A program made the position numbers and the translations under genes. Shown one piece after another: positions 2,993 through 53,527 of a DNA stretch of 64,000 nucleotides (its first letter is position 1; each line of letters starts with the position of its first letter). This stretch comes from Arthrobacter bussei (GTDB lineage: Bacteria > Actinomycetota > Actinomycetes > Actinomycetales > Micrococcaceae). The stretch lies in the NCBI RefSeq assembly GCF_009377195.2, contig NZ_VJXX01000001.1, positions 1,240,001 to 1,304,000 on the forward strand. The letters run 5' to 3'. Under the pieces are notes generated by a model. It was not told where the DNA came from and did not search any database. It was given only the letters and a program-made list of their open reading frames with translations.

Positions 2993-3975
<983 letters not shown>

Positions 3976-3976
3976 C

Positions 3977-7294: not shown

Positions 7295-7320
7295 GCCGCC
7301 AGTCTAGGTCGGCTGACGGA

Positions 7321-7356: not shown

Positions 7357-7388
7357 GTGGATCGGATGCCGAAGCGGGGCGGGATCCG

Positions 7389-32495: not shown

Positions 32496-32563
32496 GACGG
32501 TTCCTTCCCCGTGCAGGACGCGATCGTGACACCATGGGGACCGGGGCAGGGACGACCGGCCTC

Positions 32564-32604: not shown

Positions 32605-32617
32605 GTGGGAGTTCATC

Positions 32618-32969: not shown

Positions 32970-33767
32970 CTAGACGCCGATCAGTCCCTGCACCGAGGCT
33001 GCGAGGAGCTCCAGCGTCCGCGCGTCCGCCGGAGAGAACCCCCGCGGCTCGTCCGACATCACGCACAGCGATCCGATCCGCCAGCCCCCCGGCCCGCGCA
33101 CCGGGTATCCCGCGTAGAAGCGGATGCGCGGTCCTCCGGTCACGAGGGGGTTCGACGAGACCCGCGGATCCAGGGCAGCATCGGTGACGACGAAGGGCTG
33201 GGCATCCCCGACCGTGCGGTGGCAGAAGGACGTGCCCCGCGGGCCGTCCGTCCCGATGGTCCCGGAGATCGACGTGATGACCTGCCGGTCCCGGGTGATC
33301 AGGGCCAGTGAGGAGGAGCAGCCGGGGAAGCGGCGCGCCGCCTCCGCCGTGATGGCGTCCACCTGGTCCTCGCCGACGCAGCGGAGGAGACCGGTCCGCT
33401 CGAGCGATTCGAGGCGCAGGAGTTCGGCTCGGCGCGCGCTGACCAGGGGGGCTATGAGGTCCGCGGGCGAGATGCCGTAGGTGCTCCAGGAGGCGAAGGG
33501 CTCCTCCCGGTCAGCCCAAGCCGACTGCACCCCCGACGGCGCCCGGGTCCCGGTACCGGGCGTCTCCTCGGCGAGGACGTTGACGGCGCGGGCGATGAGG
33601 TCGCGGTCCTCGGCCCGGGCGGGCAGCAGGCCGTTGAGGTACCCGTCCACCACGACGCCGTCGGCGGTCCCACCGAGACCGACGTACACGACCCACGCCT
33701 CGAAAGGGTCCGCGCCGACATCCGCCAGCACCTGCTGGGTCAACCACTGCTGCGTGACTGCTTTCAC
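32970..33767 (-). CDS. GAF domain protein with an N-terminal GG-YL-type domain (paralog A)
   Basis: A 265-residue cytoplasmic protein. The C-terminal GAF domain spans roughly residues 120-260: LLRLESLERTGLL, SFCHRTVGDAQPFVVTDA, NPLVTGGPRIRFYAGYPV and WRIGSLCVMSDEPRGF. The N-terminal 65 residues hold an unrecognised domain with Trp25, Tyr28, GG, then DGYLNGLL and DRDLIARAVN, shared with three other proteins of this window. I chose the GTG at 33767 because it aligns with the start of paralog B; the ATG at 33785 has no ribosome site. It is divergent from paralog C. GAF domains bind small molecules or sense redox, but no cofactor motif is visible. Confidence 0.7.
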   Translation of the reverse strand: MKAVTQQWLTQQVLADVGADPFEAWVVYVGLGGTADGVVVDGYLNGLLPARAEDRDLIARAVNVLAEETPGTGTRAPSGVQSAWADREEPFASWSTYGISPADLIAPLVSARRAELLRLESLERTGLLRCVGEDQVDAITAEAARRFPGCSSSLALITRDRQVITSISGTIGTDGPRGTSFCHRTVGDAQPFVVTDAALDPRVSSNPLVTGGPRIRFYAGYPVRGPGGWRIGSLCVMSDEPRGFSPADARTLELLAASVQGLIGV

Positions 33768-34031
33768 GTTCGATCCCGTTCTCATCGGCGTCCGAGGCGG
33801 ACGCGCAGTCGGCCGGAGTGACGCACGCCACGGCCTCGGTGAGCATGATTCGACGCGACAGGGCCGGCGGATGTGTCCCCGTCCGGTGTTTTACGGAGGT
33901 TTCGACGGGCTGCCTTGAGGTACTGCCGCGAGCTTGCGCCAAAACTGAGTGTCAGCGGCCGCTTCAGTTGACGTGCGGTCACGAGGATGGATGGAGGCTC
34001 AGCTGGGGGCCGCGACGAGGAGTTGAGCACG

Positions 34032-34637
34032 ATGCAGAACGACGACACCCTGACGGCCATGGAGTTCGCCGGCCTCTCCACCTACGAGACGTGGATGCAC
34101 TACTGCAACATGGGCGGCTGGACCGACTACTTCGAGTTCGACGCCTACCTGTACGGCGTGTACACCCTCGACAACGACGACGCGGACCTCGTGTCGCAGG
34201 CCGTCAACGAACTCATCGACGACGCCTGCCCGGCCGACGAGGCGGCCCTCTGCCGCGCCCCCTACTCCTGGACTGCCGTCACGGACCGCACGGTCGCCGA
34301 CGTCGTCCTCGATGATGCGATGTTCGATGGCGGTCTGTTCGACGACAGCCTGTTCGACGACACGCTGCTCGACGGCATCCTGCCCGGCGCCGGACCGGGC
34401 ACGGAGGACGAGGGCGCCGGCCGGCTCGATGAAGGGCCCTTCCGCGTCCCCGTGGACGACCTCGTGGCTCCGCGCTCGCTCGACACCTTCGGTTCGCGCT
34501 TCCTGACGGGCCTCGACGTCCGCCCCCTGATGGGCCGGCCGGGCATCCCCCTGCCGCCCGGCGCGGCCCTCGAGCTGCTCGGCGAGATCCTCGACAGCGG
34601 CGTGATCGGCCGGATCATCTCGCGCGAGTGGCGCTAG
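34032..34637 (+). CDS. Stand-alone GG-YL domain protein with Phe-Asp-Asp repeats (paralog C)
   Basis: A 201-residue acidic protein. Residues 15-61 carry the shared N-terminal domain (YETWMHYCNMGG, FDAYLYGVYTL, DLVSQAVNEL), but no GAF domain follows. Instead comes a short pentapeptide-like run, MFDGGLFDDSLFDDTLLDG, which repeats (L/M)FDDx, then a Pro/Gly-rich linker and a C-terminal segment ending in ELLGEILDSGVIGRIIS. GAGGAG lies 9 bases before the ATG. It is divergent from paralog A across a 245-bp gap and ends 2 bases before the convergent TerC gene. I do not know what it does. Confidence 0.65.
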   Translation: MQNDDTLTAMEFAGLSTYETWMHYCNMGGWTDYFEFDAYLYGVYTLDNDDADLVSQAVNELIDDACPADEAALCRAPYSWTAVTDRTVADVVLDDAMFDGGLFDDSLFDDTLLDGILPGAGPGTEDEGAGRLDEGPFRVPVDDLVAPRSLDTFGSRFLTGLDVRPLMGRPGIPLPPGAALELLGEILDSGVIGRIISREWR

Positions 34638-34639
34638 CC

Positions 34640-35836
34640 CTAGCGTCCCGGTTCGCGCTCCAGTGCGGCGTCGTGCTCGGCGTGCGCCTTGCGGATCATC
34701 TCCATGAACTCGGTCTCGTTCCGGATGAGCCGCTTGAACTTCTCGGGGAGGGTCCTGAGGTCCCGCTCCTCGGCGCACAGCCGCGCGTAGATCTTCTCGC
34801 GCTCGCTGATATCCGTCTCGTAGTTGAGGTCCAGGTACTCGGCAGCATGCCGCTTCGCTCCGGAGATCGCATTCTTCGCCCGGCCCTTGGGGCTCAGCAC
34901 CGAGGCCAGCACGGTCACGACGAGGACCCCGAGGATCACGCTCAGCGACAGGCCCGTGCTGATCTCGACGACCTCCACGTGCTCGCCGTTGTTGATGAAG
35001 GGGAGGTTGTTCTCGTGCAGCGCGTGCAAGATGAGCTTCACGCCGATGAAGCCCAGGATGACGGCCAGCCCGTAGGAGAGGTAGATGAGGCGGTCGAGCA
35101 GTCCGTCGATGAGGAAGAACAGCTGCCGCAGCCCCATCAGGGAGAAGGCCGTGGCCGTGAACACGATGAACGTGTTCTGCGTGAGGCCGAAGATCGCCGG
35201 GATGGAGTCGAGTGCGAACAGGATGTCGGTCGCACCGATGGCCACCATGACGAGGAGCATCGGCGTGAGGACGCGCTTGCCGTTCTCCATGGTGAACAGC
35301 TTGTCGCCGTCGTAGTGCTCCGACGCCGGGAGGAAGCGCTTGGCGAGCCGGATGATCGTGCTGTCGCCGTCGTCGTCGTGCCCGCCCGGCTTCAGCAGGT
35401 TGCCGGCGGTGATGAGCAGGATCAGCCCGAAGATGTAGAACACCCAGGCGAAACTGTTGATGAGGGCGGCGCCCAGGAAGATGAATCCGGTCCGCGCGAT
35501 CAGCGAGAAGACGATGCCGAAGAGCAGCACCTTCTGCTGGTCCGCCCGCGGCACCTTGAAGCTGGACATGATGATGAGGAACACGAACAGGTTGTCCACG
35601 GAGAGCGCCTTCTCGGTGACGTAGCCGGCGAAGTACTCGGTGCCCATGGTCGGTCCGCCGAACAGGAGGACGCCGATGCCGAAGACCAGAGCGATCCCCA
35701 CATAGATGGAGGACCAGATGGCGGACTCGCGGAGGGTCGGCGTGTGCGCCTTGCGGACGTGGAAGAAGAAGTCGAAGAGCAGCAGTCCCACGATGCCGAT
35801 CACCGTGGCGGTCCAGACGTAGAACGGTACTTCCAT
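34640..35836 (-). CDS. TerC/Alx family membrane protein
   Basis: A 398-residue integral membrane protein with about nine hydrophobic segments. TerC hallmarks are ALSVDNLFVFLIIMSSFKVP, LFALDSIPAIFGLTQNTFIV (two acidic ion-binding helices) and LSYGLAVILGFIGVKLILHAL. Family members are implicated in metal (manganese) efflux, tellurite resistance or membrane-protein metallation. There is a C-terminal cytoplasmic tail rich in Lys/Glu. The ATG follows GAGGAG with an 8-base gap. I looked for a yybP-ykoY manganese riboswitch in the 120-bp leader and saw none. Confidence 0.9.
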   Translation of the reverse strand: MEVPFYVWTATVIGIVGLLLFDFFFHVRKAHTPTLRESAIWSSIYVGIALVFGIGVLLFGGPTMGTEYFAGYVTEKALSVDNLFVFLIIMSSFKVPRADQQKVLLFGIVFSLIARTGFIFLGAALINSFAWVFYIFGLILLITAGNLLKPGGHDDDGDSTIIRLAKRFLPASEHYDGDKLFTMENGKRVLTPMLLVMVAIGATDILFALDSIPAIFGLTQNTFIVFTATAFSLMGLRQLFFLIDGLLDRLIYLSYGLAVILGFIGVKLILHALHENNLPFINNGEHVEVVEISTGLSLSVILGVLVVTVLASVLSPKGRAKNAISGAKRHAAEYLDLNYETDISEREKIYARLCAEERDLRTLPEKFKRLIRNETEFMEMIRKAHAEHDAALEREPGR

Positions 35837-35958
35837 GCTGCAGTCTCCTCAGAAGATGCCGGCGGTGAGCCGATCCGGTCCGCCCCGGGTCATGATCGTA
35901 ACGGTACTGGCCTCCCCCTAGACTGGCGCAGTCCACACCTTTATGACGAGGGGATGCC

Positions 35959-37089
35959 ATGAGCCCGATGATGCGCGCCGCGGTGCTGCGTACCGCCGAA
36001 CTGCCTGCCCCGTATGCACGGAGCAAGCCCCTCACGCTGGACCTGCTCCCCGTGCCCGCACCTCGCGCGGGTGAGGTCCGCGTGCGGATCGCCCGCGCCA
36101 GTCTCTGCCACTCGGACCTCTCGGTGATCAATGGGTCCCGGGTCCGCCCCCTGCCCATGGCCCTCGGCCACGAGGCGACCGGCGTCGTGGAGAGCGTGGG
36201 AGACGGCGTCGACGACGTCCGGCCCGGGGACCACGTGGTCCTCGTCTTCGTACCCGCCTGCGGCTCCTGCCGCGCCTGTTCGGCCGGGCGGCCGGCGCTC
36301 TGCTACCGCGGCGCCGAGGCCAACGGCAGTGGTGACCTGCTGCACGGTCCGGCCGTCCTGGCCACCGCCGACGGGGAGCGCATCAACCACCACCTCGGCG
36401 TCTCAGCGTTCGCCGACTACGCCGTCGTGGCCCGGGAGTCGCTGGTGGTGATCGACGACGACGTGCCGTTCGACATCGCCGCCATGTTCGGCTGCGCGGC
36501 ACTCACGGGCATCGGCGCCGTCCTGAACACGGCGGAGATGGCAGCGGGACAGTCCGTGGTCGTCTTCGGGCTGGGCGCCGTGGGCCTGATGGCGGTCATG
36601 GCCGCCGCGCAGATCGCGGGCACCACCGTGATCGCGATCGATCCCCTGCCATCCAAGCAGGAGCTCGGTCTCCGGTGCGGCGCGCAGCACGCTGGTGGTC
36701 CGGAGGACGCCGAGGACCTCGTGCGGCAGGCGACGGACGGCGGGGCCGACGTCGTCATCGAGGCCGTGGGCAGCGCCCGCGTGCTGGAGTCGGGGCTCCA
36801 ACTGCTCGCCCGCGGCGGTGCGCTCGTCTCCGTCGGACTGCCCCACCCTGATCAGGCGATCTCGACCCAGGCCCTGCAGTTCGCCGGCATGGGCCGGCGG
36901 CTGCTCGGCTCCTACATGGGGGACGCCGTCCCCGAGCGGGACATCCCCGCCTACCTCGACCTCTGGCGGCGCGGGAAGCTCCCCGTCGAACTCCTGCATA
37001 CCGACACACGGCCCCTGGCCGATCTCAACGAGAGCCTCGACGCCCTCGCCGAGGGCCGGGTGGTGCGGCGGATCTTCTCCTTCGACTGA
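35959..37089 (+). CDS. Zinc-dependent alcohol dehydrogenase (class III-like)
   Basis: A 376-residue medium-chain dehydrogenase. The catalytic zinc site is visible as SLCHSDLS and GHEATGVVESVG, and the structural site as CGSCRACSAGRPALC. The coenzyme motif is FGLGAVGLMAVMAAAQIAG. The long segment before the catalytic Cys and the class III-like pattern (LGSYMGD near residue 315) fit aryl- or class III alcohol dehydrogenases. GAGGGG precedes the ATG. The TerC gene is divergent; an aldo/keto reductase gene follows after 77 bases on the same strand but has its own promoter region. Confidence 0.9.
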   Translation: MSPMMRAAVLRTAELPAPYARSKPLTLDLLPVPAPRAGEVRVRIARASLCHSDLSVINGSRVRPLPMALGHEATGVVESVGDGVDDVRPGDHVVLVFVPACGSCRACSAGRPALCYRGAEANGSGDLLHGPAVLATADGERINHHLGVSAFADYAVVARESLVVIDDDVPFDIAAMFGCAALTGIGAVLNTAEMAAGQSVVVFGLGAVGLMAVMAAAQIAGTTVIAIDPLPSKQELGLRCGAQHAGGPEDAEDLVRQATDGGADVVIEAVGSARVLESGLQLLARGGALVSVGLPHPDQAISTQALQFAGMGRRLLGSYMGDAVPERDIPAYLDLWRRGKLPVELLHTDTRPLADLNESLDALAEGRVVRRIFSFD

Positions 37090-37101
37090 GGTTTTGTTGT
37101 C

Positions 37102-37113
37102 ATTGGCACCAAT
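37102..37113. promoter_or_regulatory. Inverted repeat ATTGGCACCAAT upstream of the aldo/keto reductase gene
   Basis: ATTGG and CCAAT flank a two-base centre, 54 bases before the ATG, next to a TTGTCA sequence that could act as a -35 element. It may be an operator for a small dimeric regulator. The regulator is unknown. Confidence 0.3.
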
Positions 37114-37166
37114 TCCTGAAGCGTGCTTACCTTGAGGGCAGCACGTCTATCCAAAGGAGAACGACA

Positions 37167-38030
37167 ATGCAGCAACGCACACTCGGCGGTACCAGTGTCA
37201 GCGCAGTCGGCCTGGGCGGCATGCCCATGTCCATCGAGGGTCGTCCCGACGAGGACCGCTCCATCCGCACCATCCACGCCGCCCTCGAGGCGGGCGTCAC
37301 CCTGATCGACACCGCGGATGCCTACCACCGCGACGCGAACGAGGTGGGCCACAACGAGTCCCTCATCGCCAAGGCCCTCTCGAGCTTCGGGTCGGGCGCC
37401 TCGGACGTGCTGGTCGCGACCAAGGGCGGGCACCTGCGCCCCGGTGATGGCTCGTGGACGCAGAACGGTCACCCGGACTACCTCAAGGAGGCCGCGAAGG
37501 CATCCCTGGCGAGGCTCGGTGGCGACGCGATCGACCTCTACCAGTTCCACCGCCCGGACACCGAGGTGCCCTACGAGGATTCCATCGGTGCCCTCAAGGA
37601 CCTGCTGGACGACGGCGTGATCCGCATGGCCGGCATCTCCAATGCGACGGTGGACCAGATCCGGAAGGCGAACCAGATCCTCGACGGGCGCCTCGTCTCG
37701 GTGCAGAACCAGTTCTCCCCCGCCTTCCGCTCCAGCGAGGACGAGCTGCGCTACTGCGGCGAGAACGGCATCGCCTTCCTCCCGTGGAGCCCCCTCGGCG
37801 GAATCCAGAAGGCCGGCGGGCTCGGTGAGACCTTCGCACCCTTCCAGGAGGCCGCGGACAAGCACGGGGTGAGCCCCCAGCAGGTCTGCCTGGCCTGGGA
37901 GCTGGCCCTCTCGCCGACCGTCATCCCCATCCCGGGCGCCTCGCGGCCGGAGAGCATCACCGACTCCGCGAAGGCCGCCGAGCTCCAGCTCTCGGACGAG
38001 GAGATCCAGGCGCTCTCCGCAGCCGTCTGA
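37167..38030 (+). CDS. Aldo/keto reductase
   Basis: A 287-residue NADPH-dependent TIM-barrel reductase. It starts MQQRTLGGTSVSAVGLGGM and has the catalytic tetrad Asp (TLIDTADAYH), Tyr (ADAYHRDAN), Lys (VATKGG) and His (FHRPDTEVP). It probably reduces carbonyl compounds. AAAGGAG lies 6 bases before the ATG, and a hairpin terminator follows, so it is a single-gene unit under its own promoter with a palindromic element. Confidence 0.9.
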   Translation: MQQRTLGGTSVSAVGLGGMPMSIEGRPDEDRSIRTIHAALEAGVTLIDTADAYHRDANEVGHNESLIAKALSSFGSGASDVLVATKGGHLRPGDGSWTQNGHPDYLKEAAKASLARLGGDAIDLYQFHRPDTEVPYEDSIGALKDLLDDGVIRMAGISNATVDQIRKANQILDGRLVSVQNQFSPAFRSSEDELRYCGENGIAFLPWSPLGGIQKAGGLGETFAPFQEAADKHGVSPQQVCLAWELALSPTVIPIPGASRPESITDSAKAAELQLSDEEIQALSAAV

Positions 38031-38052
38031 CCAGCCGTCACCCCGCACTCCA

Positions 38053-38087
38053 GAACGCCCTTCCCTCCCTCGGAGGGGAGGGCGTTC
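38053..38087 (+). terminator. Hairpin terminator after the aldo/keto reductase gene
   Basis: GAACGCCCTTCCCTCC (38053-38068) pairs with 38072-38087 across a three-base loop, with one G-T wobble, 23 bases after the stop. The remaining 155 bases to the cyclase gene hold no feature I can see. Confidence 0.8.
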
Positions 38088-38242
38088 CCCTACAGGCCGT
38101 CGGCGCTTCCCACGGGTCGGCAGTCCGCGTGTCCTGCCGGCGTTGCCCGCCCTACCGGGCATGCAAGGCCCGTGGTGCGCCCCGGCGGCCGTCGTCCGGC
38201 GCACTGCTGCGCGCCTGCCGGGAGGGTCGTGCGGCAGTGCGG

Positions 38243-38917
38243 TCAGGCATCAGGCTGCATCGCGACGGCGCGGACCGGTGATCCGTCGACGCCGGCCAGC
38301 GCCAGCGGGAAGACGGACACGAGGGGATGTGCCCAGTCCGCGGCGGCGAGGTTGGTCAGGTTCTCGAGGATCAGCCCGCCGGCCCCCTGGAACAGGGCAT
38401 GGAACGGCAGGGCGCCGTCGTTCCGCAGCGTGGAATCGGGGCTGAGGGTGTCGCTGCCCATCAGGGTGATCCCCTCGGCGAGAAGGCCCTCCGCGACATC
38501 GGCCGCGAGCACGGGGTGCTCGAGATAGCGCTGGGTCCCGAAGTGCCGGGACCAGCCCGTGCGGAACAGCACCATGGCCGGGGGCGCACCCTCGTCCGCC
38601 GCCCGCCGCACTGCACGGCCCACCTGCTGTCCGACGTCGGACCACGTGATCACCGCGTGCGACTCCCGTCCTTCGCAGTCCACGACGACGGCGATCCCCA
38701 CGAGGCGCGCGAGATCGATTTCGTCCACGGCGGCGGCCCCGGGCACGGAGTGGAGCGGTGCGTCGAGGTGCGTCCCGGTATGCGATCCGAGCCGGAGGGA
38801 CGCCACCTGGTAACCGTCCTCCCCCACCGTCGCCACGGTCTCCACCCTCACCTCGGGATCACCCGGGTAGACCTGCATGCCGGAACGGATGGAGTGGCTG
38901 ATGTCAACGATCCGCAT
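38243..38917 (-). CDS. Cyclase family protein (kynurenine formamidase/isatin hydrolase-like)
   Basis: A 224-residue metal-dependent hydrolase. It starts MRIVDISHSIRSGMQVYPGD and contains the signature HTGTHLDAPLHS, whose His and Asp residues bind the metal, then GSDTLSPDS. Family members open cyclic amides or remove N-formyl groups (kynurenine formamidase, isatin hydrolase, creatininase-like). The ATG lies inside the end of the NCS1 permease gene, an overlap of 14 bases, so both are translated from one transcript and a shared substrate is likely. Confidence 0.88.
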   Translation of the reverse strand: MRIVDISHSIRSGMQVYPGDPEVRVETVATVGEDGYQVASLRLGSHTGTHLDAPLHSVPGAAAVDEIDLARLVGIAVVVDCEGRESHAVITWSDVGQQVGRAVRRAADEGAPPAMVLFRTGWSRHFGTQRYLEHPVLAADVAEGLLAEGITLMGSDTLSPDSTLRNDGALPFHALFQGAGGLILENLTNLAAADWAHPLVSVFPLALAGVDGSPVRAVAMQPDA

Positions 38918-40316
38918 TGGTCCGCTCTGTCTCCGGCAGGTCGAGCAGATGGACGTGGGGATGCCTGGACCGGTCGATCCGCCCGCTGGCCGCAGCCCAC
39001 GCCAGGTAGAGGAGCGCGGAGAGGACGAACGTGGGGATCGTGGCTCCGATCGGGCTGGGCACCACGTAGGTCAGCAGCAGGGACGCACCCGCGCCGATCA
39101 CCCAGACCAGCACGGCAGCGAGGTTGACTCCGCCCGTGAACCAGTACGCTCCGCCCGTTCCACGGAGGATGTCACGACCGTAGTGACGCGATCGCACGAG
39201 GTAGTAGTCGACGATCATGATCGCGAACACCGGGATGAAGAGCGCACCGATCACGACCAGGAACGCCGTGAACCGGTCGAGCAGCGCGAGCCAGGTGGAG
39301 CCGAGGATCGAGATCACGCCGAGGACGATCGCCGTGGGCAGGAAGGTGATGCGGCGCGAGGGCACCATGTTCACCACCGAGGCCACCATGCCGTAGACCA
39401 CCATGGTGTTCGTCGCCATGACGGACAGGAAGATCACGACGGCGAGCGGGGCGCCGAACGCGGCGACGATCACGGTGGGATCGAACGGCAGTGCCTCGCC
39501 GCCGTCGAGCACCACGTAGCCGATGGCGGTGGCTCCGAGCGTCATGGCGAGCACCGTGGACAGCATGTACCCGACACCGGAGCCGATCATCCCGGCGGCC
39601 TGGGTACGAGCGAGTCGGTTGAACTCGGCGGACAGGACGGTCCACGAGATGGCCGTGGCGATGACGACGTCGAGCGCCGCGACGGGTGTCCAGCCGGCCT
39701 CGACGTCCTGCGGGATCGCCGCGAATTCGGCAGGCCCGTGCGCGAGGAAAGCCGCAACGAAGATGTAGGCCATGAAGGCGAGGATCACGAGGGCCAGCCA
39801 CGGTTCGACCCGGGCGATCCCCGTGTGACCGAAGATCGCCAGGCACACGACGAGGAGCTGGCAGAGCACGGAGAACAGGACCGGACTCGAGAATCCGGTG
39901 GCCTGTTCCACGAGGAAGTTCACGGTGACGCCCGCGAGCATCGCCTGCACCCAGCTCCAGCCCATGAGCGTCACGACGTTCGCCGCGACCGGAAGGAAGG
40001 ACCCGCGGAGTCCGAAGGAGCCCTTGGTCAGGGACATGGTGGGCAGACCCGTTCGCGTCCCCATGTTGCCGACCAGCACGAGGACGGAGCCGCCGATCAG
40101 CGTGCCCAGGACGATCATGCCCACGGCAAGGCCCCAGCTGATGCCTGGCACGAACAGCGTTCCCGTCAGCAGGGTCGTGACGACGAGGTTCGCCGCCAGC
40201 CAGATCATCCCCATGCGCGCGGTTCCGAGGGTGCCGCGGAGGGGACCGTAGCCGTCGGAGTTCTTGTCGAGGTGGTGCGACAGGCGCCGGTAGGCGGAGC
40301 TGGTGGTGTCGGTCAT
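38904..40316 (-). CDS. NCS1 family nucleobase/hydantoin-type transporter (cytosine permease family)
   Basis: A 470-residue inner-membrane transporter of the purine-cytosine permease family with about 12 helices. Motifs are SFGLRGSFLPVAANVVTLMG, MLAGVTVNFLVEQATGF and PVFAIMIVDYYLVRSRHYG. NCS1 proteins import cytosine, hydantoins, allantoin or thiamine-like molecules with sodium or protons. It sits between a SnoaL-like gene (4-base overlap) and a cyclase gene (14-base overlap), suggesting import and hydrolysis of a cyclic nitrogen compound. GAGGAG lies before the ATG. The precise ligand is not inferable. Confidence 0.88.
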   Translation of the reverse strand: MTDTTSSAYRRLSHHLDKNSDGYGPLRGTLGTARMGMIWLAANLVVTTLLTGTLFVPGISWGLAVGMIVLGTLIGGSVLVLVGNMGTRTGLPTMSLTKGSFGLRGSFLPVAANVVTLMGWSWVQAMLAGVTVNFLVEQATGFSSPVLFSVLCQLLVVCLAIFGHTGIARVEPWLALVILAFMAYIFVAAFLAHGPAEFAAIPQDVEAGWTPVAALDVVIATAISWTVLSAEFNRLARTQAAGMIGSGVGYMLSTVLAMTLGATAIGYVVLDGGEALPFDPTVIVAAFGAPLAVVIFLSVMATNTMVVYGMVASVVNMVPSRRITFLPTAIVLGVISILGSTWLALLDRFTAFLVVIGALFIPVFAIMIVDYYLVRSRHYGRDILRGTGGAYWFTGGVNLAAVLVWVIGAGASLLLTYVVPSPIGATIPTFVLSALLYLAWAAASGRIDRSRHPHVHLLDLPETERTNADR

Positions 40317-40735
40317 GATGCGCTCTCCTCAGGGGCATCGGCGGGAACGGGGCTCAGGTGTTCGTGGACGGCACGGAGGGTGGTCCCGGAGCGGCGGAAC
40401 ACGATCGTCTCGCGTTCCCGGGTGGTGTCGGAGACACCGCCGACGGCCGTGGTGGTCGTGACGTCGTGGGTGAACACGGCCGTATCGCCGAGGAGCTGCA
40501 CCCGCGGGTTGCTGCTGATGCATTCCGTCACGCGCCAGCCGTCCGCGAGCCAGCCGGCCCAGAGCTGCTCATAGGCCGCCCTGCTGTCCAGCCGCCGGGA
40601 CTCCGTGTGGAACACGAAGGTCGCATCCTCCGTGAAGGACCCGAAGTAGGCACGGGTGTCGGTGGCCCGGAAGGCATCGACCAGGGCGGTCGCCGCAGCG
40701 AGGACGTCCTCGTCAGTCAGGTTCTCGTTCGGCAT
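40313..40735 (-). CDS. SnoaL/NTF2-like protein
   Basis: A 140-residue NTF2-fold protein: the first helix ALVDAFRATDTRAYFGSFTED with the pocket strands (ATFVFHTESRRLDSRAAYEQL, HDVTTTTAVGGV) fit the SnoaL family. Such proteins act as isomerases, hydrolases or ligand-binding subunits. The ATG at 40735 follows AAGAGG with a 5-base gap. It is the first gene of a three-gene unit with the NCS1 permease (ATGA overlap) and cyclase. Two direct repeats of TTGTTGTCC lie 20-50 bases upstream and could be an operator pair. Confidence 0.82.
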   Translation of the reverse strand: MPNENLTDEDVLAAATALVDAFRATDTRAYFGSFTEDATFVFHTESRRLDSRAAYEQLWAGWLADGWRVTECISSNPRVQLLGDTAVFTHDVTTTTAVGGVSDTTRERETIVFRRSGTTLRAVHEHLSPVPADAPEESAS

Positions 40736-40754
40736 ACAGGCCTCTTCCGTCCTC

Positions 40755-40784
40755 TTGTTGTCCACCAGTGAACCTTTGTTGTCC
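40755..40784. promoter_or_regulatory. Direct repeats TTGTTGTCC, 21 bp apart
   Basis: TTGTTGTCC occurs at 40755-40763 and 40776-40784, exactly 21 bp apart, two turns of DNA, upstream of the SnoaL/NCS1/cyclase operon. A regulator binding both sites on the same face of the helix is plausible. No regulator gene is adjacent. Confidence 0.4.
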
Positions 40785-40929
40785 GGAGATCATCGGTGAC
40801 GTTCACCACGAATGTCAACGGAAGACCGTCCAGGACCCGCGGGGGAAGGGAGCGAGGGCGGGTGCGGCGCCCGGAGTCCGTGCGGCCCGATCGGACGCGC
40901 CCGCAGGCCGGCGTTGCTAGGGTGGCAGC

Positions 40930-41634: not shown

Positions 41635-41692
41635 CGCCTCCTCCCACCAGCTCCGAGCGTCCGGTTGCCGTCCTTCCTCCTCCTCCTCCTCC

Positions 41693-42574: not shown

Positions 42575-42749
42575 CAACCTGCTTCCGGCTCTGTCATCAG
42601 GCCGCTCGGTGCGGGCCTCGCACCATGATGCCGCTTCGGCACCCCGTCACCGAGCACTCCCGAGGTGGCAGCGGGGTGATCGCTCCGGTGACGTCGGGCG
42701 CCGCCCGGGCAGGAGGAGCCATGAGGTCGACGGCGACCGACCGGTGGCG

Positions 42750-44704: not shown

Positions 44705-44794
44705 CCGGCCAATCTACAGCGGTGCATCTGCGCTCCCGGCCCGGTCCCGGCGCGCCCGCGACGGCAGGATCGCCGGGCGACGGAAGCAGTGGCT

Positions 44795-45862: not shown

Positions 45863-45948
45863 GGATCCCTTCGCGTGGCGTCGACTACCTCCACGGTAGG
45901 TTCCGCCACCGACACTTCCATGGCACATTCCTCTCCTCCCGGCCCTTG

Positions 45949-45978
45949 TTGAGAATGATCTTCATTTACGTCTAACCT
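45949..45978 (+). promoter_or_regulatory. Promoter of the zinc operon with a Zur box on the -35
   Basis: TGAGAATGATCTTCA (45950-45964) is a near-palindrome that matches the actinobacterial Zur operator TGAAAATGATTTTCA at 13 of 15 positions. It covers TTGAGA, a likely -35 element, and TAACCT (45973-45978) fits the -10. A start point 7 bases further falls on the ATG at 45985, so aztD would be leaderless. Zur with zinc would block the promoter. Confidence 0.85.
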
Positions 45979-45984
45979 AGGGGT

Positions 45985-47334
45985 ATGTCGCTACATCGTC
46001 GAACTCTCCCCCTGTCCACCGCCGTCCTCGCAGCCCTGGTGCTCACCTCGTGTTCCACTCCGGCCTCGACGGGATCCGGCGCCGATGCCCCGGCGAATCC
46101 GGCCACGACCGCCGACCGCCCCTCGGAAGCAGGCACGCCGACCAGCGCCGACGCCACGGATCGGCAGGAGGTCGACGGTCTCGCACCCCGGGCGGTCCTG
46201 ACGTACGACGGCGGCATCATGGCTGTCGACACCGAGACCGGTGACGTGCTGACGAACACCGAGTCCGAGGGCTTCCTGCGCCTCAACGAGGCCGGCGACG
46301 GACGGCACGTCCTGGTCAGCGCCGGCAAGGAATTCCGCGTGTTCGACAGCGGTCTGATCGTCGAAGGGCACGGGGACCACGACCACTACTACGAGCAGGC
46401 CCCTGCGCTCACGGGCTCCACGGTGGAGGCCGCCGAGGCCGGACACGTCGTTGCGCACGGGGGGAAGACCGCGCTCTTCGCCGACGGCAGCGGAGCGATC
46501 AGCATCATGGACACCTCGGCGTTCGAGGACGGCCGGATCGACGCGGACGAGGTCGAGAGCTTCTCAACCGATGACCCGCACCACGGGGTGGCAGTCCCCC
46601 TGACGTCGGGTGATCTGCTGATGACGCAGGGGACAGCGGATTCCCGCTCCACCGTGCAGGTCGTCTCCCCCGAGGGTGAGCTCCTCGCCGAGACGACGGA
46701 CTGCCCGGGGGTGCACGGTGAAGCTGCCGCCATGCCGACCACGGCCGGCGACGTCGTCTCCCTGGGCTGCGAGAACGGTCCGGTGGTCTATCGGGACGGC
46801 GAGTTCCACAAGATCCACGTCGATGAGCCCTACCAGCGCTCCGGCAACCAGTTCGGCAGCCACGAGTCCCCGATCGTCCTGGCCGACTACAAGACGGACC
46901 CTGACGCGGAGCAGGAACGCCCCACCCGCGTCGGGCTGATCGACACCCACGCCTCCGTCATGACCACCGTCGACCTCGGATCGGCGTACTGGTTCCGTTC
47001 ACTCGCCCGGGGCGCCGACGGTGAGGCCCTCGTCCTGACCTATGACGGGGAACTGAACATCCTCGACGAGGAGACCGGCGCCGTCCTTCACGAGGTGGAG
47101 GTCGTCGCACCCTGGGAGGAGCCCGAGGAATGGCAGTCTCCCGCCCCGACCGTCAAGGTCGGAACCGACGGTTTCGCCTATGTCACGGAGCCGTCCGCCA
47201 AGAAGCTGCATGTCATCGACGTCGCCGAGGGTACCCTGCTGGACAGTTTCGACCTTCCCGAGACCCCGGTGGAGCTCGCCGTCGTGACCGGAGAGGGAAG
47301 ACACGGACACGACCACGCCGACGGCGAAGGCTGA
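45985..47334 (+). CDS. aztD: Zinc metallochaperone AztD-like lipoprotein
   Basis: A 449-residue lipoprotein with signal peptide ending ALVLTSCS. The rest is a beta-propeller-like sequence with His-rich metal-binding motifs HGDHDHYYEQ near residue 130 and HGHDHADGEG at the C-terminus. This fits AztD, which passes zinc to the binding protein AztC. It is first in the zinc-uptake operon. The mRNA is likely leaderless with a Zur box over the promoter. Confidence 0.85.
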   Translation: MSLHRRTLPLSTAVLAALVLTSCSTPASTGSGADAPANPATTADRPSEAGTPTSADATDRQEVDGLAPRAVLTYDGGIMAVDTETGDVLTNTESEGFLRLNEAGDGRHVLVSAGKEFRVFDSGLIVEGHGDHDHYYEQAPALTGSTVEAAEAGHVVAHGGKTALFADGSGAISIMDTSAFEDGRIDADEVESFSTDDPHHGVAVPLTSGDLLMTQGTADSRSTVQVVSPEGELLAETTDCPGVHGEAAAMPTTAGDVVSLGCENGPVVYRDGEFHKIHVDEPYQRSGNQFGSHESPIVLADYKTDPDAEQERPTRVGLIDTHASVMTTVDLGSAYWFRSLARGADGEALVLTYDGELNILDEETGAVLHEVEVVAPWEEPEEWQSPAPTVKVGTDGFAYVTEPSAKKLHVIDVAEGTLLDSFDLPETPVELAVVTGEGRHGHDHADGEG

Positions 47335-47433
47335 GGCCACCGGCACTGAGCAGTCGCGACGGCCCGTCGGGTCGTCGCGGCTGCCCGTCATCGATCAGGC
47401 CCCGACCCTCCCCGAACCTCCTCAAGGAATCCA

Positions 47434-48351
47434 GTGAACGTCCTGTCGCGTCCAATCCTCGTTCTGCCGGTCATGGCAGCCCTCGCCCTGTCCGCCTGCG
47501 CCCCGCCGTCCGATCCCGCAGATCCCGACGGCACGAACAGCACGTCGATGACGGTGCTCACCTCGTTCTACCCCCTTCAGTTCGTCGTCGAGAGGGTGGG
47601 CGGGGACACCGTCGAGATCAGCTCGATCACCCCTCCCGGCGCGGAGCCCCACAACCTCGAACTCTCACCGGCAAAGGTCGCCGAACTGGCCGACGCCTCC
47701 GCAGTGGTCTACGCCTCCGGCTTCCAGGCCGCTGTGGATGAAGCGGTCGTGCAGACCGCGCCGGAGCATGCCATCGACGTGGCGGATGCCGCACAGCTCT
47801 CGACCGCCGGCGGCGGCACGGCCGAGGACGACGACGCGGGGGACCCCCACTTCTGGCTCGACCCGGAACGCCTCGGCGACGTCACGGACGTGGTCGCCGA
47901 ACGTCTCGGCGAACTGGACCCGCAGAACGCAGTAGAGTATGCGGCGAACGCCGACAAGCTCAACCAGGAGCTGTCCACCCTCGACGAGGACTTCAGCACG
48001 GGTCTCGCCACATGCGAGCGCCGCACGATCGTCGTCTCCCATGAGGCGTACGGCTACCTGACGGACCGCTACGATCTCGAGCAGACGGGGGTCTCGGGCA
48101 TCGACCCCGAAGCCGAACCGGCGCCGGCCCGGATTGCGAAGATCCGCCGCGTCATCGAGGGCCAGGACGTCACGACCATCTTCACGGAATCCCTCGTCAA
48201 TCCGAAGGTCGCCGAGACGCTGGCCGCGGACCTCGGCGTGACGACGGCGCTGCTCGATCCGATCGAATCGCACGCGGACACCAGCGGCGACTACCTCGAC
48301 GTCATGCGCGGCAACCTCAGCGCCCTGCGGGAAGCGCTCGACTGTGCGTGA
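47434..48351 (+). CDS. znuA: Zinc ABC transporter substrate-binding lipoprotein (AztC/ZnuA)
   Basis: A 305-residue cluster A-I binding protein. The lipobox is LALSAC. Metal ligands are suggested by PGAEPHNLELSPAK, DPHFWLDPER and VSHEAYGYL, and the acidic loop GGGTAEDDDAGDPH takes the place of the His-rich loop of Gram-negative ZnuA. GTG start with AAGGA 5 bases upstream. The stop overlaps the next gene's GTG by 8 bases. It delivers zinc to the ZnuBC channel. Confidence 0.92.
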   Translation: MNVLSRPILVLPVMAALALSACAPPSDPADPDGTNSTSMTVLTSFYPLQFVVERVGGDTVEISSITPPGAEPHNLELSPAKVAELADASAVVYASGFQAAVDEAVVQTAPEHAIDVADAAQLSTAGGGTAEDDDAGDPHFWLDPERLGDVTDVVAERLGELDPQNAVEYAANADKLNQELSTLDEDFSTGLATCERRTIVVSHEAYGYLTDRYDLEQTGVSGIDPEAEPAPARIAKIRRVIEGQDVTTIFTESLVNPKVAETLAADLGVTTALLDPIESHADTSGDYLDVMRGNLSALREALDCA

Positions 48352-49174
48352 CCGTGCCGGCCGGCATCCCGCGGTGCAGATCGACGGACTCCACGTGGAG
48401 CTCGGCGCGAACTCCGTCCTCGAGGGCATCGACCTGGAGGTCGCTGACGGCCAGACCCTCGCCCTGCTCGGGGCGAACGGCTCGGGGAAGACGACCCTGG
48501 TCAGGGCCGTTCTGGGGCTGGTGCCGGCCACCCGCGGGCGGATCGCCGTGTACGGCGCGGACCTCGTGATGCGCCGCGCTGTGCCCTGGTCACGCCTCGG
48601 GTACGTTCCGCAGCGGGTGAACGCCCAGCCGGTCATGAGCGTCACCGCCGAGGAAGTCGTTGCCGCCGGCCTGCTGGACCATCGGCGCCTGGTCCCCGGG
48701 TCGCACGCACGCGAGCGCGCGCAGGACGCCCTCGGGCAGGTCGGTCTGCGCGAACGCTCCCGGGACAACGTCCACCTCTTCTCCGGCGGACAGCAGCAGC
48801 GCGTGCTGATCGCCCGCGCCCTGATCCGCCGGCCGGACCTGCTGATCATCGACGAGCCGCTGTCCGGCATCGACCATGACTCGCAGACGGCGCTGGCGGT
48901 CACCCTGAGCGATCTCCAGGCGCGAGGGACCACCATCATCGTCGTGCTGCACGATCCCGGCGTCCTCGCCCCGCTGATCCACCGCACCGTCGTCCTCGAC
49001 CACGGCCGGGTGAGGCATGACGACGCCGCAGGCATCGAGGGCTTTCCGCCGAGGGCCGGGAGCACACTGCCCTCCGACGCCTCGGACGACGCGCGTGTCC
49101 GCGGGACGGACCGCGCACCCCACCCGGACCATCACGCACTTGACCTCACGACCGGCCGGAGAGGATCATCATGA
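48344..49174 (+). CDS. znuC: Zinc ABC transporter ATP-binding protein (AztA/ZnuC)
   Basis: A 276-residue ATPase. Walker A is GANGSGKTTLV, the signature FSGGQQQRVLIARAL and Walker B LLIIDEPLSGID. There is an extra C-terminal tail of about 45 residues with HPDHH, perhaps metal-binding. The GTG start overlaps the znuA end by 8 bases and the stop overlaps znuB by 4 bases, so the operon is tightly coupled. Confidence 0.93.
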   Translation: MRDRAGRHPAVQIDGLHVELGANSVLEGIDLEVADGQTLALLGANGSGKTTLVRAVLGLVPATRGRIAVYGADLVMRRAVPWSRLGYVPQRVNAQPVMSVTAEEVVAAGLLDHRRLVPGSHARERAQDALGQVGLRERSRDNVHLFSGGQQQRVLIARALIRRPDLLIIDEPLSGIDHDSQTALAVTLSDLQARGTTIIVVLHDPGVLAPLIHRTVVLDHGRVRHDDAAGIEGFPPRAGSTLPSDASDDARVRGTDRAPHPDHHALDLTTGRRGSS

Positions 49175-50190
49175 CCTTCCTCGACACACTGCTGTCCATG
49201 CTGTCCAGTGAGCTGATGCAGCGGGCCCTGCTCATCGCCGGCCTCGTCGGTGTCAGCGCTCCGGTCATCGGCACGTACCTCGTCCAACGCCGTCTGGCAC
49301 TGCTCGGCGACGGCATCGGCCATGTCGCACTGACGGGTGTCGCGATGGGGTGGCTCGCCGGCGCTGCCGCCGGCACCGCCTCCGCGGACGCCCTGGCCGT
49401 GCCCGGTGCGGTCGCCGCCGCCATCATCGGGGCGCTCCTCATCGAGTTCGTCCGCGACCGCGGCCGCACCAGCGCCGACGTCGCCCTGGCGATGCTGTTC
49501 TACGGTGGTATCGCCGGTGGCGTGCTCCTCATCGGGCTCGCGGGCGGAACAGCAGCGAACCTCACCGGGTACCTCTTCGGATCCATCTCCACCGTCGACT
49601 CCCTCGACGTGTGGCTCAGCGCCGGACTGGCCGTCTTCATCCTCGGCGTCGGCCTCGGCCTGCGGCCGGCACTGTTCGCCCTCTGCTACGACGAGGAGTT
49701 CGCCCGCGCCAGCGGGCTGCCGGTGCGGGCCCTGAACATCCTGGTCGCCGTCACCGCCGCGCTGACCGTGGCGATCTCCATGCGTGTGGTCGGCGTACTG
49801 CTGGTCTCGGCACTGATGATCGTGCCCGTCGCCGTGGCGCAGCTCATCGCGCCCTCCTTCCGCGCCACCATGGGAGTGGCCATGGTGCTGGGCGGAATCG
49901 TCTGCGTCGTCGGACTCTCCATCACGTACTTCCATGCACTCTCCCCGGGAGCGACCATCACGGTGCTCGCGATCACCCTCTACGCGGGCGTGGCGGTGAT
50001 CAGGCCGCTCCTGCACCGCAGGCGTCATCTTCGACGCCCCGATCCTCAGCACCTGCAGCACCTTTCCCGGGTCGGCGCCGTACGTGGGTATCCGGCCGAT
50101 ACCAGGGCGGACGGCCACGCGCGCGTGGCGTCGGCCAGCCGCGGTGCTCGGAGTGACGCACCACGGCGGAACACCTCACGCTCGGCCTGA
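49171..50190 (+). CDS. znuB: Zinc ABC transporter permease (AztB/ZnuB)
   Basis: A 339-residue permease with about eight or nine hydrophobic helices; the motifs RLALLGDGIGHVALTGVAMG and SGLPVRALNILVAVTAALTV are typical of the ZnuB/MntB family. The last 60 residues after GVAVIRPLLHRRRHL form an unusual hydrophilic, Arg/His-rich cytoplasmic tail. ATG overlaps the TGA of znuC. No zur gene is adjacent. Confidence 0.92.
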   Translation: MTFLDTLLSMLSSELMQRALLIAGLVGVSAPVIGTYLVQRRLALLGDGIGHVALTGVAMGWLAGAAAGTASADALAVPGAVAAAIIGALLIEFVRDRGRTSADVALAMLFYGGIAGGVLLIGLAGGTAANLTGYLFGSISTVDSLDVWLSAGLAVFILGVGLGLRPALFALCYDEEFARASGLPVRALNILVAVTAALTVAISMRVVGVLLVSALMIVPVAVAQLIAPSFRATMGVAMVLGGIVCVVGLSITYFHALSPGATITVLAITLYAGVAVIRPLLHRRRHLRRPDPQHLQHLSRVGAVRGYPADTRADGHARVASASRGARSDAPRRNTSRSA

Positions 50191-50315
50191 CTGCCGGTAC
50201 TGTCTCCTGCGACAGCACTGCCGTCGCCTGCCGGAGTGGGCGTGTGGGCCGTCCCGCGCTGCGGTGTTCTGTGCGGCGAGGACACTGCACGTGCGGTACG
50301 GGCTACATTCGGTGG

Positions 50316-51272
50316 ATGTCTCCCATCATGATTGCCGTGGTCGTCACGGTCCTGCTGTCGAGCGTGATCCCCGTGATCGTCGGCGGGGCCGTCCGCCGGG
50401 GTGACCGGAGCGGTCGCGGAACGGCTCGCCCGGATGCAGACACGGGGGCGCTGTTCGTCGTGAGGAATCGGCGCTGGCAGGCTGCCCTGTTCCGGGTGCT
50501 CGGCATCGTCCTCCTGGTTGTCGGGGGGTTCTTCACGATCGTCTCTGTCGCCAGGACCGAGGAGTTGGAGGGTCCGGGTCCCCTGGTCGGTGCGACCGGG
50601 ATCACGGTGGCCGGGGCGGTCTTCGTGGTTCTCGCCATGGGCATCCACCGGTTCAGGGTCGAGGCGTTCGACGACCACCTGACGGTCCGCCCGTGGTTCC
50701 GAGCGACGCGGCTCGTCGCCCTGACCGACATCGGTTCGGTCCGTCCGGCGCCCAACGCCCTCGGCGGGGTCGACGTCAGGGATGTGGGCGGCAGGATGCA
50801 CTTCACGGCGACCAGGATCAGCATCGGCTACACCGACCTGGTCGCTTTCCTGCAGCAGAGCACCCCCCGGCAGCAGACCACGGCTCCCGCGGTGCCCGGC
50901 GACGTCGCACCCTGGCAGGGCGCCAGCCTACGGGCTGAGTTGTACCCGCTCCCCCGCGGACGCAGGGGAACCCTGGAATCAGGCGTCCTCCTCACTGCGG
51001 GAGACGTGTCAGCGCCCATGTTCACGAGCGAACTCGCGGACCTGCTCCATCACCGTGTCGGCATCGTGGAGTCCACCACCGCTGATCCTCTCGTCTTCCT
51101 GTGCTGGCCGGACTCGGGGTCGCCCACGTCGATCGTCTGGGAGTCCACGAAGGACCTGCCGGCCGAATCCCTGGCCCTCCTCAGCGATCCGATGGACGCA
51201 GGCCCCGCCGCCGTCGTCACCGGCACCGAGCTCACCGACTTCTCCGAGTGGATCGCGGCCCTTCCCCGCTGA
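50316..51272 (+). CDS. Membrane protein with two helices and a soluble domain (hypothetical)
   Basis: A 318-residue protein. There are two or three N-terminal membrane segments (MIAVVVTVLLSSVIPVIVGG, ALFRVLGIVLLVVGGFFTIV, ITVAGAVFVVLAMG), then a short PH-like segment (HLTVRPWFRATRLVALTDIG) and a C-terminal soluble part ending in FSEWIAALPR. Function unknown. Another in-frame ATG is 12 bases downstream. It stands 125 bp after znuB on the same strand but probably has its own promoter. Confidence 0.65.
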   Translation: MSPIMIAVVVTVLLSSVIPVIVGGAVRRGDRSGRGTARPDADTGALFVVRNRRWQAALFRVLGIVLLVVGGFFTIVSVARTEELEGPGPLVGATGITVAGAVFVVLAMGIHRFRVEAFDDHLTVRPWFRATRLVALTDIGSVRPAPNALGGVDVRDVGGRMHFTATRISIGYTDLVAFLQQSTPRQQTTAPAVPGDVAPWQGASLRAELYPLPRGRRGTLESGVLLTAGDVSAPMFTSELADLLHHRVGIVESTTADPLVFLCWPDSGSPTSIVWESTKDLPAESLALLSDPMDAGPAAVVTGTELTDFSEWIAALPR

Positions 51273-51367
51273 CCCGGCGGAGTGAGGCGCAGTCCACCCG
51301 GAACGGGGTCGGAACCGGTGTCCGGTTTCCCGGGGAAGGGGCCCACCGCACGGATGATGGAACGCGT

Positions 51368-52240
51368 CTACCCCGGTGGTTCTCCGGTCCACATCTCGAG
51401 CTGTACCTGGGCTGCGAGGAGCCGCAGGTCGCGCGCGTCAGCTGATGTGAAGGCTCGCGGCCGATCGTCGATGACGCAGAGGGAGCCGATGCGCCACCCG
51501 TCGGCACTGGTCAGGGGGTGTCCCGCGTAGAACCGGATGCCGGGACTCCCGGTGACGAGGGGGTGGTCGCTGTACTCGGGGTCGCTGCGAGCATCGGTGA
51601 TGACCAGTGTGCGGTCCGCTTCGACGGTGCGGGAACAGAGAGCGACGTCGCGGGGCAGGTCCTGCCCGATCGGTCCCACCACGGACTTGATGACCTGCCT
51701 GTCATCGGTGATCAGTGCGATGGACGCCGAGGAGGTTCCGAAACGCCGGCGGGCCTTCGCGGTGATCCTGTCGAAGCGCTCTTCCGCGCCGGAATCGAGT
51801 AGCCCGCTCCGGGACAGGGCATCGCACCGTCGGGACTCGTGGGCCAGGAACCCGGCTCGATCCTCCGGCTGCACGGCGTCACCATCTGCAGGGCGCCCGG
51901 ACCGTGTGTGGAATGGATGGCCGGTGCTGACCTCGTCGGAGACGACGAGCAGCCTGTACAGGCCGTCCGCGACCCACGTCTTCCCGGTACCGCCGTCATG
52001 GCTGTACTGGGCGCCGGTGATGACGAGTCCCTTCTCCGCGAGCATCTCGTTGATGGCGTACGAGAGGAGATCGCGATCGGCACGGGGCAGGCACATCAGC
52101 CCGGAAAGGTAGCCGGACACGTCGACCTCGTCGACCTCCCCGCCGAAGCCGACATACGACACCCAGGCATCGAAAGGATCGAGCTCCCCGGCCTGAAGGG
52201 CCTGGACCGCTGTCCACTGCTGCCTGCAGCTACTGATCAT
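51368..52240 (-). CDS. GAF domain protein with an N-terminal GG-YL-type domain (paralog B)
   Basis: A 290-residue soluble protein, close paralog of the product at 32970. The N-terminal domain includes DPFDAWVSYVGFGG, VSGYLSGL and DRDLLSYAINEML. The GAF domain includes SRSGLL, ITDDRQVIKSV, HPLVTGSPGIRFYAGHPL and WRIGSLCVIDDRPRAF. It contains no catalytic output domain, so the GAF may signal through its N-terminal domain or through partners. It is divergent from paralog D across 456 bp. Confidence 0.72.
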   Translation of the reverse strand: MISSCRQQWTAVQALQAGELDPFDAWVSYVGFGGEVDEVDVSGYLSGLMCLPRADRDLLSYAINEMLAEKGLVITGAQYSHDGGTGKTWVADGLYRLLVVSDEVSTGHPFHTRSGRPADGDAVQPEDRAGFLAHESRRCDALSRSGLLDSGAEERFDRITAKARRRFGTSSASIALITDDRQVIKSVVGPIGQDLPRDVALCSRTVEADRTLVITDARSDPEYSDHPLVTGSPGIRFYAGHPLTSADGWRIGSLCVIDDRPRAFTSADARDLRLLAAQVQLEMWTGEPPG

Positions 52241-52696
52241 GAGTCACGAAGCTCCGTACTCGGCGAACGTTCTTCGCCCGGACACCGGCGTCCCGGGCGG
52301 ACTGATCCTCCACCTTAGGGCGACTCACCATCACAGCGGACATCGATCAGCCTGTTGTCCGTACTCGACATCGTCCGAAGTCGATCCGCCGCCCATACCC
52401 GCAGGGGCACCGGAACCATGGAGTAGTGGAGCGCACTGCAGGCCCTTCGCGCAGCGAAGCTCACGATCGACAGCGTCATTCAGGAGTATCCACGGCTCGC
52501 GCACGGTGGCCCTGTGCGCGACGACGATCAAGGCGAACAGATGAGGACCAGGACGAAGGCCCTGGGGGCGCCTGAGGGTGTAGCGGGTCGGGTGGGCAGG
52601 ACTAGCCGATCGGGGCCTTGATCGGTGTGCTGTCGCGATTGAACCATCGGTAGATTGGAGTCTTGTTGTTCTTTCGTTCACTGGGGGGCTGAGGAC
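52241..52696. other. 456-bp intergenic region between the two divergent GAF genes
   Basis: No convincing gene. A frame without stops from about 52430 to 52610 on the plus strand would read LQALRAAKLTIDSVIQEYPR and so on, but it has no start codon with a ribosome site. Both promoters must lie here; I could not identify either one with confidence. A run of repeated TTGTTG near 52663 is visible. Confidence 0.5.
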
Positions 52697-53527
52697 ATGG
52701 GTAGTGCTGATGTTCAGCAAGGAGTGACCGCGGATCTCGCCGCACGGTTCGGCGTGCAGCCGGAGAGGGTGCACTCCGTGTACAGGCAGAGCGGTGGCAT
52801 GTGCTCACTGGGCGAGGTGTCCGCCTATCTCCTGGACGGTGGAATGCTGACGTCGCTGCAGCGTGATCTGGTGTCGGATGCGGTCAACGAGCTGCTCAAC
52901 GTGCCCTACCCGCGCAGCGCGGGACAGCGGGCCCCCTACACGCATCATGACGTGGCCGCCGCTGCCGGCTACGGTCCGAGCGAACTCGACGGCGACCACG
53001 TCGATCGACGGCTCCGCCGCCCCACAAGCAGGGAGGTTCCGGTGCACGGTCGAGAGCCCGCACGCCTCGAGGACCTCCGCGCCTCGAATCTCCTGGATCC
53101 CGCAGTCTCGCGATCCATGTCGCTGCAACGGCTGCCGACCATGGCGAGGACGTATTTCGGCACCATGGGATCAGCGTTGACGCTCATCGACGCCGACAAA
53201 CAACGCACGCCCGTCGCCGACGGGGTGCCGACCGCGGACGTACCCCGGGACCTGTCGTTCTGCAACGCTGCCATCGCGTTCGATACCACCATGGTGGTCC
53301 CGGACACGCGCCTCGACGACCGGTTCAGGACCAACCCGTACGTTGTCGGAGCTCCTCGCATCCGTTTCTACGCAGGCCATCCCATCAACGGTCCCGGAGG
53401 CCACCGCATCGGGGTGCTCTGCCTCCTGTATGACACACCCCACACGTTCAGCTCGTCCGACCGGAGGAAGCTGCGCACCCTGGCAGCGCTCGTACAGCTG
53501 GAGATGGTGCCACCACGGACCACGTGA
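52697..53527 (+). CDS. GAF domain protein with an N-terminal GG-YL-type domain (paralog D)
   Basis: A 276-residue soluble protein. The N-terminal segment contains VYRQSGGMCSLGEVSAYLLD and QRDLVSDAVNELL, the most diverged copy of the shared domain (Trp missing, His-Ser-Val-Tyr in its place). The GAF part is clear: LSFCNAAIAFDTTMVVPDTR, NPYVVGAPRIRFYAGHPING and HRIGVLCLLYDTPHTF. The ATG at 52697 follows a GAGG. A terminator hairpin lies 20 bases after the stop, so the gene is monocistronic. Confidence 0.72.
   Translation: MGSADVQQGVTADLAARFGVQPERVHSVYRQSGGMCSLGEVSAYLLDGGMLTSLQRDLVSDAVNELLNVPYPRSAGQRAPYTHHDVAAAAGYGPSELDGDHVDRRLRRPTSREVPVHGREPARLEDLRASNLLDPAVSRSMSLQRLPTMARTYFGTMGSALTLIDADKQRTPVADGVPTADVPRDLSFCNAAIAFDTTMVVPDTRLDDRFRTNPYVVGAPRIRFYAGHPINGPGGHRIGVLCLLYDTPHTFSSSDRRKLRTLAALVQLEMVPPRTT

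Follow-up and report, generated by a model that had tools for sequence, protein, structure and literature searches.

In the AmiC-AmiR system an ANTAR antiterminator is controlled by a partner protein, AmiC, which is a periplasmic-binding-protein-like amide sensor, while in the RsbU phosphatases it is the N-terminus of the enzyme that receives RsbT. To our knowledge, the question of signal input into the GAF-ANTAR class is largely open. ANTAR domains bind dual-hexaloop RNA motifs (PMC8934654), and the signal domain of NasR keeps the ANTAR RNA-binding residues sequestered, by way of residue pairs such as E191-R340, until nitrate arrives (PMC7496416). ANTAR proteins and the RNAs they target are widespread in actinobacteria, and Arthrobacter is named among the genera in which a single genome has nearly 10 or even up to 36 ANTAR RNAs (PMC8164766); the main text of that map contains neither the word GAF nor the word phosphatase. 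Here we consider four proteins, A to D, encoded in a 64,000-nucleotide stretch of the Arthrobacter bussei genome (NCBI RefSeq assembly GCF_009377195.2, contig NZ_VJXX01000001.1, positions 1,240,001 to 1,304,000 of the forward strand; hereafter the window), which have in common an N-terminal domain (the N-domain) some 70 residues long. From the gene content and gene order of its relatives we propose, with a probability of about 0.52, that the N-domain docks on GAF-ANTAR RNA regulators as their partner and that A-D are orphan members of the family acting in trans.

The open reading frame (ORF) list places the four genes in two divergent pairs, as the earlier note on this DNA had reported, and Pfam and profile matches give their domain composition. 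In the first pair, protein A (271 residues; 32970..33785, minus strand) consists of the N-domain (33522..33758), a linker and a GAF domain (residues 143-265; 32991..33359; GAF_2, E 5.9e-8), and protein B (201 residues; 34032..34637, plus strand) of the N-domain (34032..34280) and an acidic tail. In the second, protein C (290 residues; 51368..52240, minus strand) and protein D (276 residues; 52697..53527, plus strand) are both built like A, with N-domains at 51989..52228 and 52712..52954, the latter being the weakest of the four profile matches, and with GAF domains at residues 153-281 of C (51398..51784; E 3.1e-14) and 144-267 of D (53126..53497; E 5.5e-10). The division into three proteins with a C-terminal GAF domain and one without it was thus borne out, GAF (PF01590/PF13185) exceeding the curated Pfam cut-off in A, C and D and not in B. 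No ANTAR domain (PF03861) and no SpoIIE catalytic domain was found by Pfam in the A-D proteins themselves.

The similarity of the four N-termini was significant in profile searches. A profile built from them retrieved, in the first round and with E values of 3e-21 to 1e-8, 13 further ORFs from other stretches of the genome, and a profile of 15 rows from other genera, containing no Arthrobacter sequence, picked exactly A-D out of the 778 window ORFs of at least 40 residues (E 8e-16 to 3e-10, the next match having 0.44). Since the latter profile held no Arthrobacter rows, the likeness is real and not circular. The earlier note had taken the domain to be unrecognised and to belong to a family of four paralogs. 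The former still stands, as the N-domain has no credible family match in Pfam, NCBIfam, PHROGs or PADLOC; the latter is an underestimate, the genome holding 17 copies and one fragment. The best Pfam match of these 17 N-domains had an E value of 0.024 to an unrelated family, the NCBIfam scan of A-D found nothing, and their PHROGs matches (phrog_14602 and phrog_27950) were confined to the GAF part. We also considered A-D as defence-system genes and rejected this, PADLOC finding nothing.

Outside Arthrobacter the N-domain has a constant neighbour. Among 36 distinct non-Arthrobacter N-domain loci, which are not all independent (L045 and L046 and some others are close relatives) and many of which were covered by 1.5 kb upstream only, 25 are preceded on the same strand by an ANTAR gene no more than 131 nt away, and three more by one at 481-794 nt; a Pfam reference stretch that ended before the ANTAR domain (L007) was counted neither way. 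Because our own ANTAR profile had been built from six of the 36 loci, all 25 upstream genes were checked against Pfam, and every one of them exceeded the curated ANTAR cut-off, GAF being recognised as well in 24 (the exception is L051). One locus, L002, had been taken to show an ANTAR gene without a GAF, the latter having been split off; this was dropped, as Pfam sees a partial GAF there and the frame may be broken. In the existing annotation of a Kocuria rosea plasmid a GAF and ANTAR protein is followed by a hypothetical protein (the operon pair WP_284564008 and WP_284564009); a possible further case is the hypothetical protein that adjoins a GAF/ANTAR protein in the Rhodococcus alkB regions described in PMC11854999. 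Among the titles and abstracts listed in searches of the open-access part of PMC, none dealt with such a partner domain for ANTAR proteins or with an ANTAR/SpoIIE operon.

In several other families the N-domain is found at the start of proteins 477-502 residues long whose C-terminal part is a SpoIIE/PP2C phosphatase. SpoIIE was confirmed by Pfam in all 14 fusions found (E 8e-28 to 5e-45), and each of the 14 directly follows an ANTAR gene, the gap from the end of the ANTAR domain to the N-domain being 26-60 nt; the region between the N-domain and SpoIIE is weakly GAF-like in L056. When 12 of the phosphatase loci were compared, the outer neighbours proved to be mostly different (L103 and L105 share two genes that look tRNA-synthetase-like by eye), so that the two-gene unit of ANTAR and N-domain is what is kept. 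The neighbourhoods hold further signalling genes. A second ANTAR gene is present in L054, L055 and L106. That of L054 encodes a PAS-ANTAR-STAS protein (3255-4448, plus strand), with ANTAR and STAS in one chain, and lies two genes upstream of the N-domain phosphatase, and a STAS gene lies near the L106 phosphatase locus. In L108 the phosphatase gene is followed, at 6551-7478, by a small GAF_2 gene and a HATPase_c_2 gene, an arrangement resembling a single-operon partner-switch kit, and a sensor kinase gene stands beside L103 on the opposite strand.

The STAS and HATPase_c_2 neighbours leave room for a partner-switch link, and the succession of N-domain, middle region and SpoIIE phosphatase in the 14 relatives is that of the RsbU-type phosphatases. 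The N-domain could accordingly be an RsbU-like input domain which receives an activator and regulates STAS/anti-sigma partners, the ANTAR protein being a co-regulated neighbour or a part of the switch. We consider this unlikely. The neighbour that stays constant, directly upstream of the relatives, is an ANTAR gene, whereas STAS or a lone HATPase was found near only three of the 12 phosphatase loci and was not recognised in the other nine, some of the neighbours having been scanned with Pfam and the rest judged by eye. Moreover, the N-domain occurs without phosphatase fusion in the other 22 of the 36 loci as well as in A-D, and no credible Pfam match to the RsbU N-terminal family was obtained for the 17 members scanned. 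The signalling or partner-switch module that the earlier note had envisaged is therefore upheld in part: there is an unrecognised signalling domain, the 14 fusions bear on partner switching only indirectly, and the constant neighbour is a GAF-ANTAR regulator.

The association is found within Arthrobacter as well. In five genomes of the genus, with 81 N-domain copies and 130 ANTAR places, 22 copies have an ANTAR domain at a distance of up to 500 nt, always upstream and on the same strand, where uniform placement predicts 0.81, and 37 copies lie within 3000 nt, where 3.7 are expected. As a control, the positions of the HTH_3 and ANTAR matches of the window's genome were compared by eye, and none of the 21 HTH_3 matches came as close as 500 nt to an ANTAR match. 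Among 42 distinct ANTAR/N-domain pairs chosen for a gap of up to 400 nt (17 from Arthrobacter and 25 from others), 37 offer the N-domain gene a possible start codon between -8 and +21 nt from the ANTAR stop codon, and 12 of these 37 allow the 4-nt overlap that is typical of translational coupling; judged by these possible start codons, the two genes may be translationally coupled. In the window's genome four of the 18 ANTAR places (19 rows) are paired in cis, and hence free ANTAR partners exist.

A further explanation is that the N-domain is a hitchhiking operon partner, which binds a metabolite or some other protein and owes its place beside ANTAR regulators to co-expression alone. The many copies that lie far from ANTAR genes would agree with it, as would the GAF fusions, which are sensors in their own right. 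The two-gene unit, however, persists across differing neighbourhoods and distant families with its genes abutting or possibly overlapping, and we regard mere co-expression as quite unlikely.

The model of a stand-alone member of the family, obtained from an alignment of 22 sequences, comprises four helices (H2-12, H17-26, H33-40 and H48-63) with a predicted local distance difference test score (pLDDT) of 94.9 and a predicted template-modelling score (pTM) of 0.80. The full-length model of protein C, made from three sequences (C with A and D), is poor (mean pLDDT 57) and was therefore used for the helix pattern only; it has four low-confidence helices at matching places in the N-domain, a very-low-confidence linker (74-134) and a GAF-like part. 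Foldseek gave no structural match at an E value of 0.001 or better, the best being 1.1 in PDB and 0.1 in BFVD. That the N-domain has diverged from a Cro/C1 (XRE) helix-turn-helix (HTH), and that A-D are DNA-binding regulators of their own divergent promoters, is very unlikely: many of the named top Foldseek matches are indeed Cro/C1-type HTH proteins (TM ~0.5-0.7) and the genes do form two divergent pairs, but this structural resemblance is weak, XRE membership by sequence was rejected (the hhalign comparison with the 15 XRE domains of the genome gave a probability of 0.4, no better than the reversed control), no Pfam HTH match was listed for the 17 N-domains scanned, the net charge is negative in 52 of 52 N-domains (median -6, compared with +1 for the 15 XRE domains), and divergent pairing is kept only in part elsewhere. 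The acidic charge together with the lack of XRE profile similarity makes DNA binding unlikely, while a protein-binding role would fit.

Our preferred reading, in which the N-domain docks on ANTAR proteins, may be put as follows. The N-domain would be a small acidic four-helix domain working with GAF-ANTAR proteins, the RNA-binding regulators of transcript leaders. In the arrangement most often found outside Arthrobacter it is encoded directly behind a GAF-ANTAR gene, by itself or as the input part of a protein with a GAF-like region and a SpoIIE/PP2C phosphatase, and in the latter case the pair may tie RNA control to the PP2C output. In Arthrobacter the domain has multiplied, some copies still standing behind an ANTAR gene and others, such as A-D, being orphans. 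Proteins A, C and D would then be GAF sensors that dock on ANTAR proteins made elsewhere in the genome and switch their RNA binding on or off, and B a sensor-less version which, with its acidic tail, would likewise dock on ANTAR proteins in trans. By such binding the acidic N-domain might hold the ANTAR RNA-binding residues in trans, or the effect might be the reverse, that is, activation.

Such a scheme would have precedents in the systems mentioned at the outset. In the NasR-type NIT/PAS/GAF-ANTAR proteins a sensor is likewise linked to an ANTAR output, and an acidic partner could sequester the output in trans in a similar manner; the difference is that here an extra domain from a separate gene goes with the GAF-ANTAR protein, as judged from gene order. 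With AmiC-AmiR the N-domain would share the control of an ANTAR protein by a separate protein encoded beside it, and a partner gene directly beside the ANTAR gene is found in 25 of the 36 non-Arthrobacter loci and for 22 of the 81 Arthrobacter copies, though not for A-D. Unlike the periplasmic-binding-protein-like AmiC, the N-domain is small and helical and lacks a credible Pfam match.

The case for the association between the N-domain and ANTAR is strong, that for the mechanism moderate and that for A-D in particular weak. The data show the domain and its family, the fusions, the order of the genes and the joint divergence of paired genes, while translational coupling, binding, its activating or inhibiting sense and the part played by the orphans in trans are inferred. 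The members of a pair diverge jointly, as expected for an inherited pair: N-domain distances correlate with those of the ANTAR partners with a Mantel r of 0.74 for the 42 pairs, 0.92 for the 17 from Arthrobacter and 0.63 for the 25 others (p 0.0002 each), values that are inflated by the shared ancestry of the hosts. Similarly, the numbers of N-domain and ANTAR matches correlate over 14 genomes, 13 of them of the genus (Spearman 0.80, p 0.0007), where the thresholds were not identical and the genomes were partly picked for high or low N-domain counts. Apart from these reservations, several observations weigh against the docking of the N-domain on ANTAR proteins. Eight of the 36 non-Arthrobacter loci have no same-strand ANTAR gene upstream in the stretch covered, and for 59 of the 81 Arthrobacter copies the nearest ANTAR domain is more than 500 nt away. 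There is no ANTAR gene near A-D, the closest being 137.7 kb from D, and the four proteins are therefore placed by relatedness only. The leaders of A-D were also considered as ANTAR targets, and a crude scan of the four leaders gave no dual-hexaloop candidate. The STAS genes near two of the 12 phosphatase loci (L106 and L054) also fit a partner switch. Finally, gene order speaks for functional coupling, not for contact.

The divergent pairing, which the earlier note had emphasised, did not prove to be a general property. In ten other genomes of the genus, selected at places with a B-like match, which makes the presence of B a matter of selection, TerC adjoins the B-like gene in nine stretches, and an A-like gene faces B in three only: G020 (96% identical), G021 (62%) and G068, where it is short (58% over 121 residues). 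No second N-domain is seen in the other seven stretches. In G020, the only other genome examined at the second place, the divergent neighbour of C (94%) is a different N-domain gene and no D was seen. The pairing is thus a local arrangement and not a defining feature of the family. Elsewhere in the window, a Guanidine-III riboswitch (Rfam RF01763, 56.7 bits) lies at 32540-32607 on the plus strand directly 5' of a gene ending at 32932, which by eye encodes an SMR-type transporter, and a c-di-GMP-I-GGC riboswitch (RF03167, 71.8 bits) lies near the window end, at 63523-63597 on the plus strand.

The N-domain is present in 22 of 24 same-genus genomes and in none of 14 genomes of other families from the same draw; in wider draws, which overlap, it was found in 41 of 197 genomes and 12 of 32 genera at the level of the family, in 30 of 396 genomes (12 of 109 genera) at that of the order, in 11 of 394 (8 of 137 genera) for the class and in 4 of 296 (4 of 199 genera) for the phylum. 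Of the 17 copies in the window's genome eight carry GAF and nine do not, as judged from length, sequence and the reach of the matches to A. Within the genus a genome has between 0 and 34 matches, counting fragments and broken copies, and some copies (in G019 and others) contain in-frame stop codons, which indicate turnover; the two facts together suggest birth and death of copies. In the plasmid collection the hosts of the domain are Arthrobacter, Kocuria, Pseudarthrobacter, Rhodococcus and Nocardia. On one plasmid (G012:C2, probably AP018698.1 of Arthrobacter sp. MN05-02; L116) the N-domain is present in several copies, of which one follows an ANTAR gene, so the family can travel on plasmids. 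Carriage by phages was considered and dropped, a tblastn search with one stand-alone domain giving no match among 50,697 phage records. Three contigs titled Vibrio cholerae strain 35D (WNZI01; L076, L077 and L078) encode domains 52-92% identical to an Arthrobacter N-domain, and this record looks mislabelled or contaminated.

A bolder version of the docking interpretation, which we offer tentatively and ourselves find somewhat doubtful, is that the N-domain defines a dedicated, undescribed actinobacterial family of acidic GAF-ANTAR partners which would mask the basic RNA-binding face of ANTAR. The phosphatase- and GAF-fused versions would then feed in other signals, and the birth-and-death expansion to as many as 34 copies in Arthrobacter would amount to a combinatorial RNA-level sensor array with A-D as its trans-acting members.

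If the N-domain is indeed a partner of GAF-ANTAR proteins, it would offer a concrete handle on this class of regulators in the form of a small protein suitable for binding tests. The PP2C fusions may connect RNA-level control with partner switching, and the partnership might help to explain the large numbers of both N-domain and ANTAR genes in some Arthrobacter genomes.

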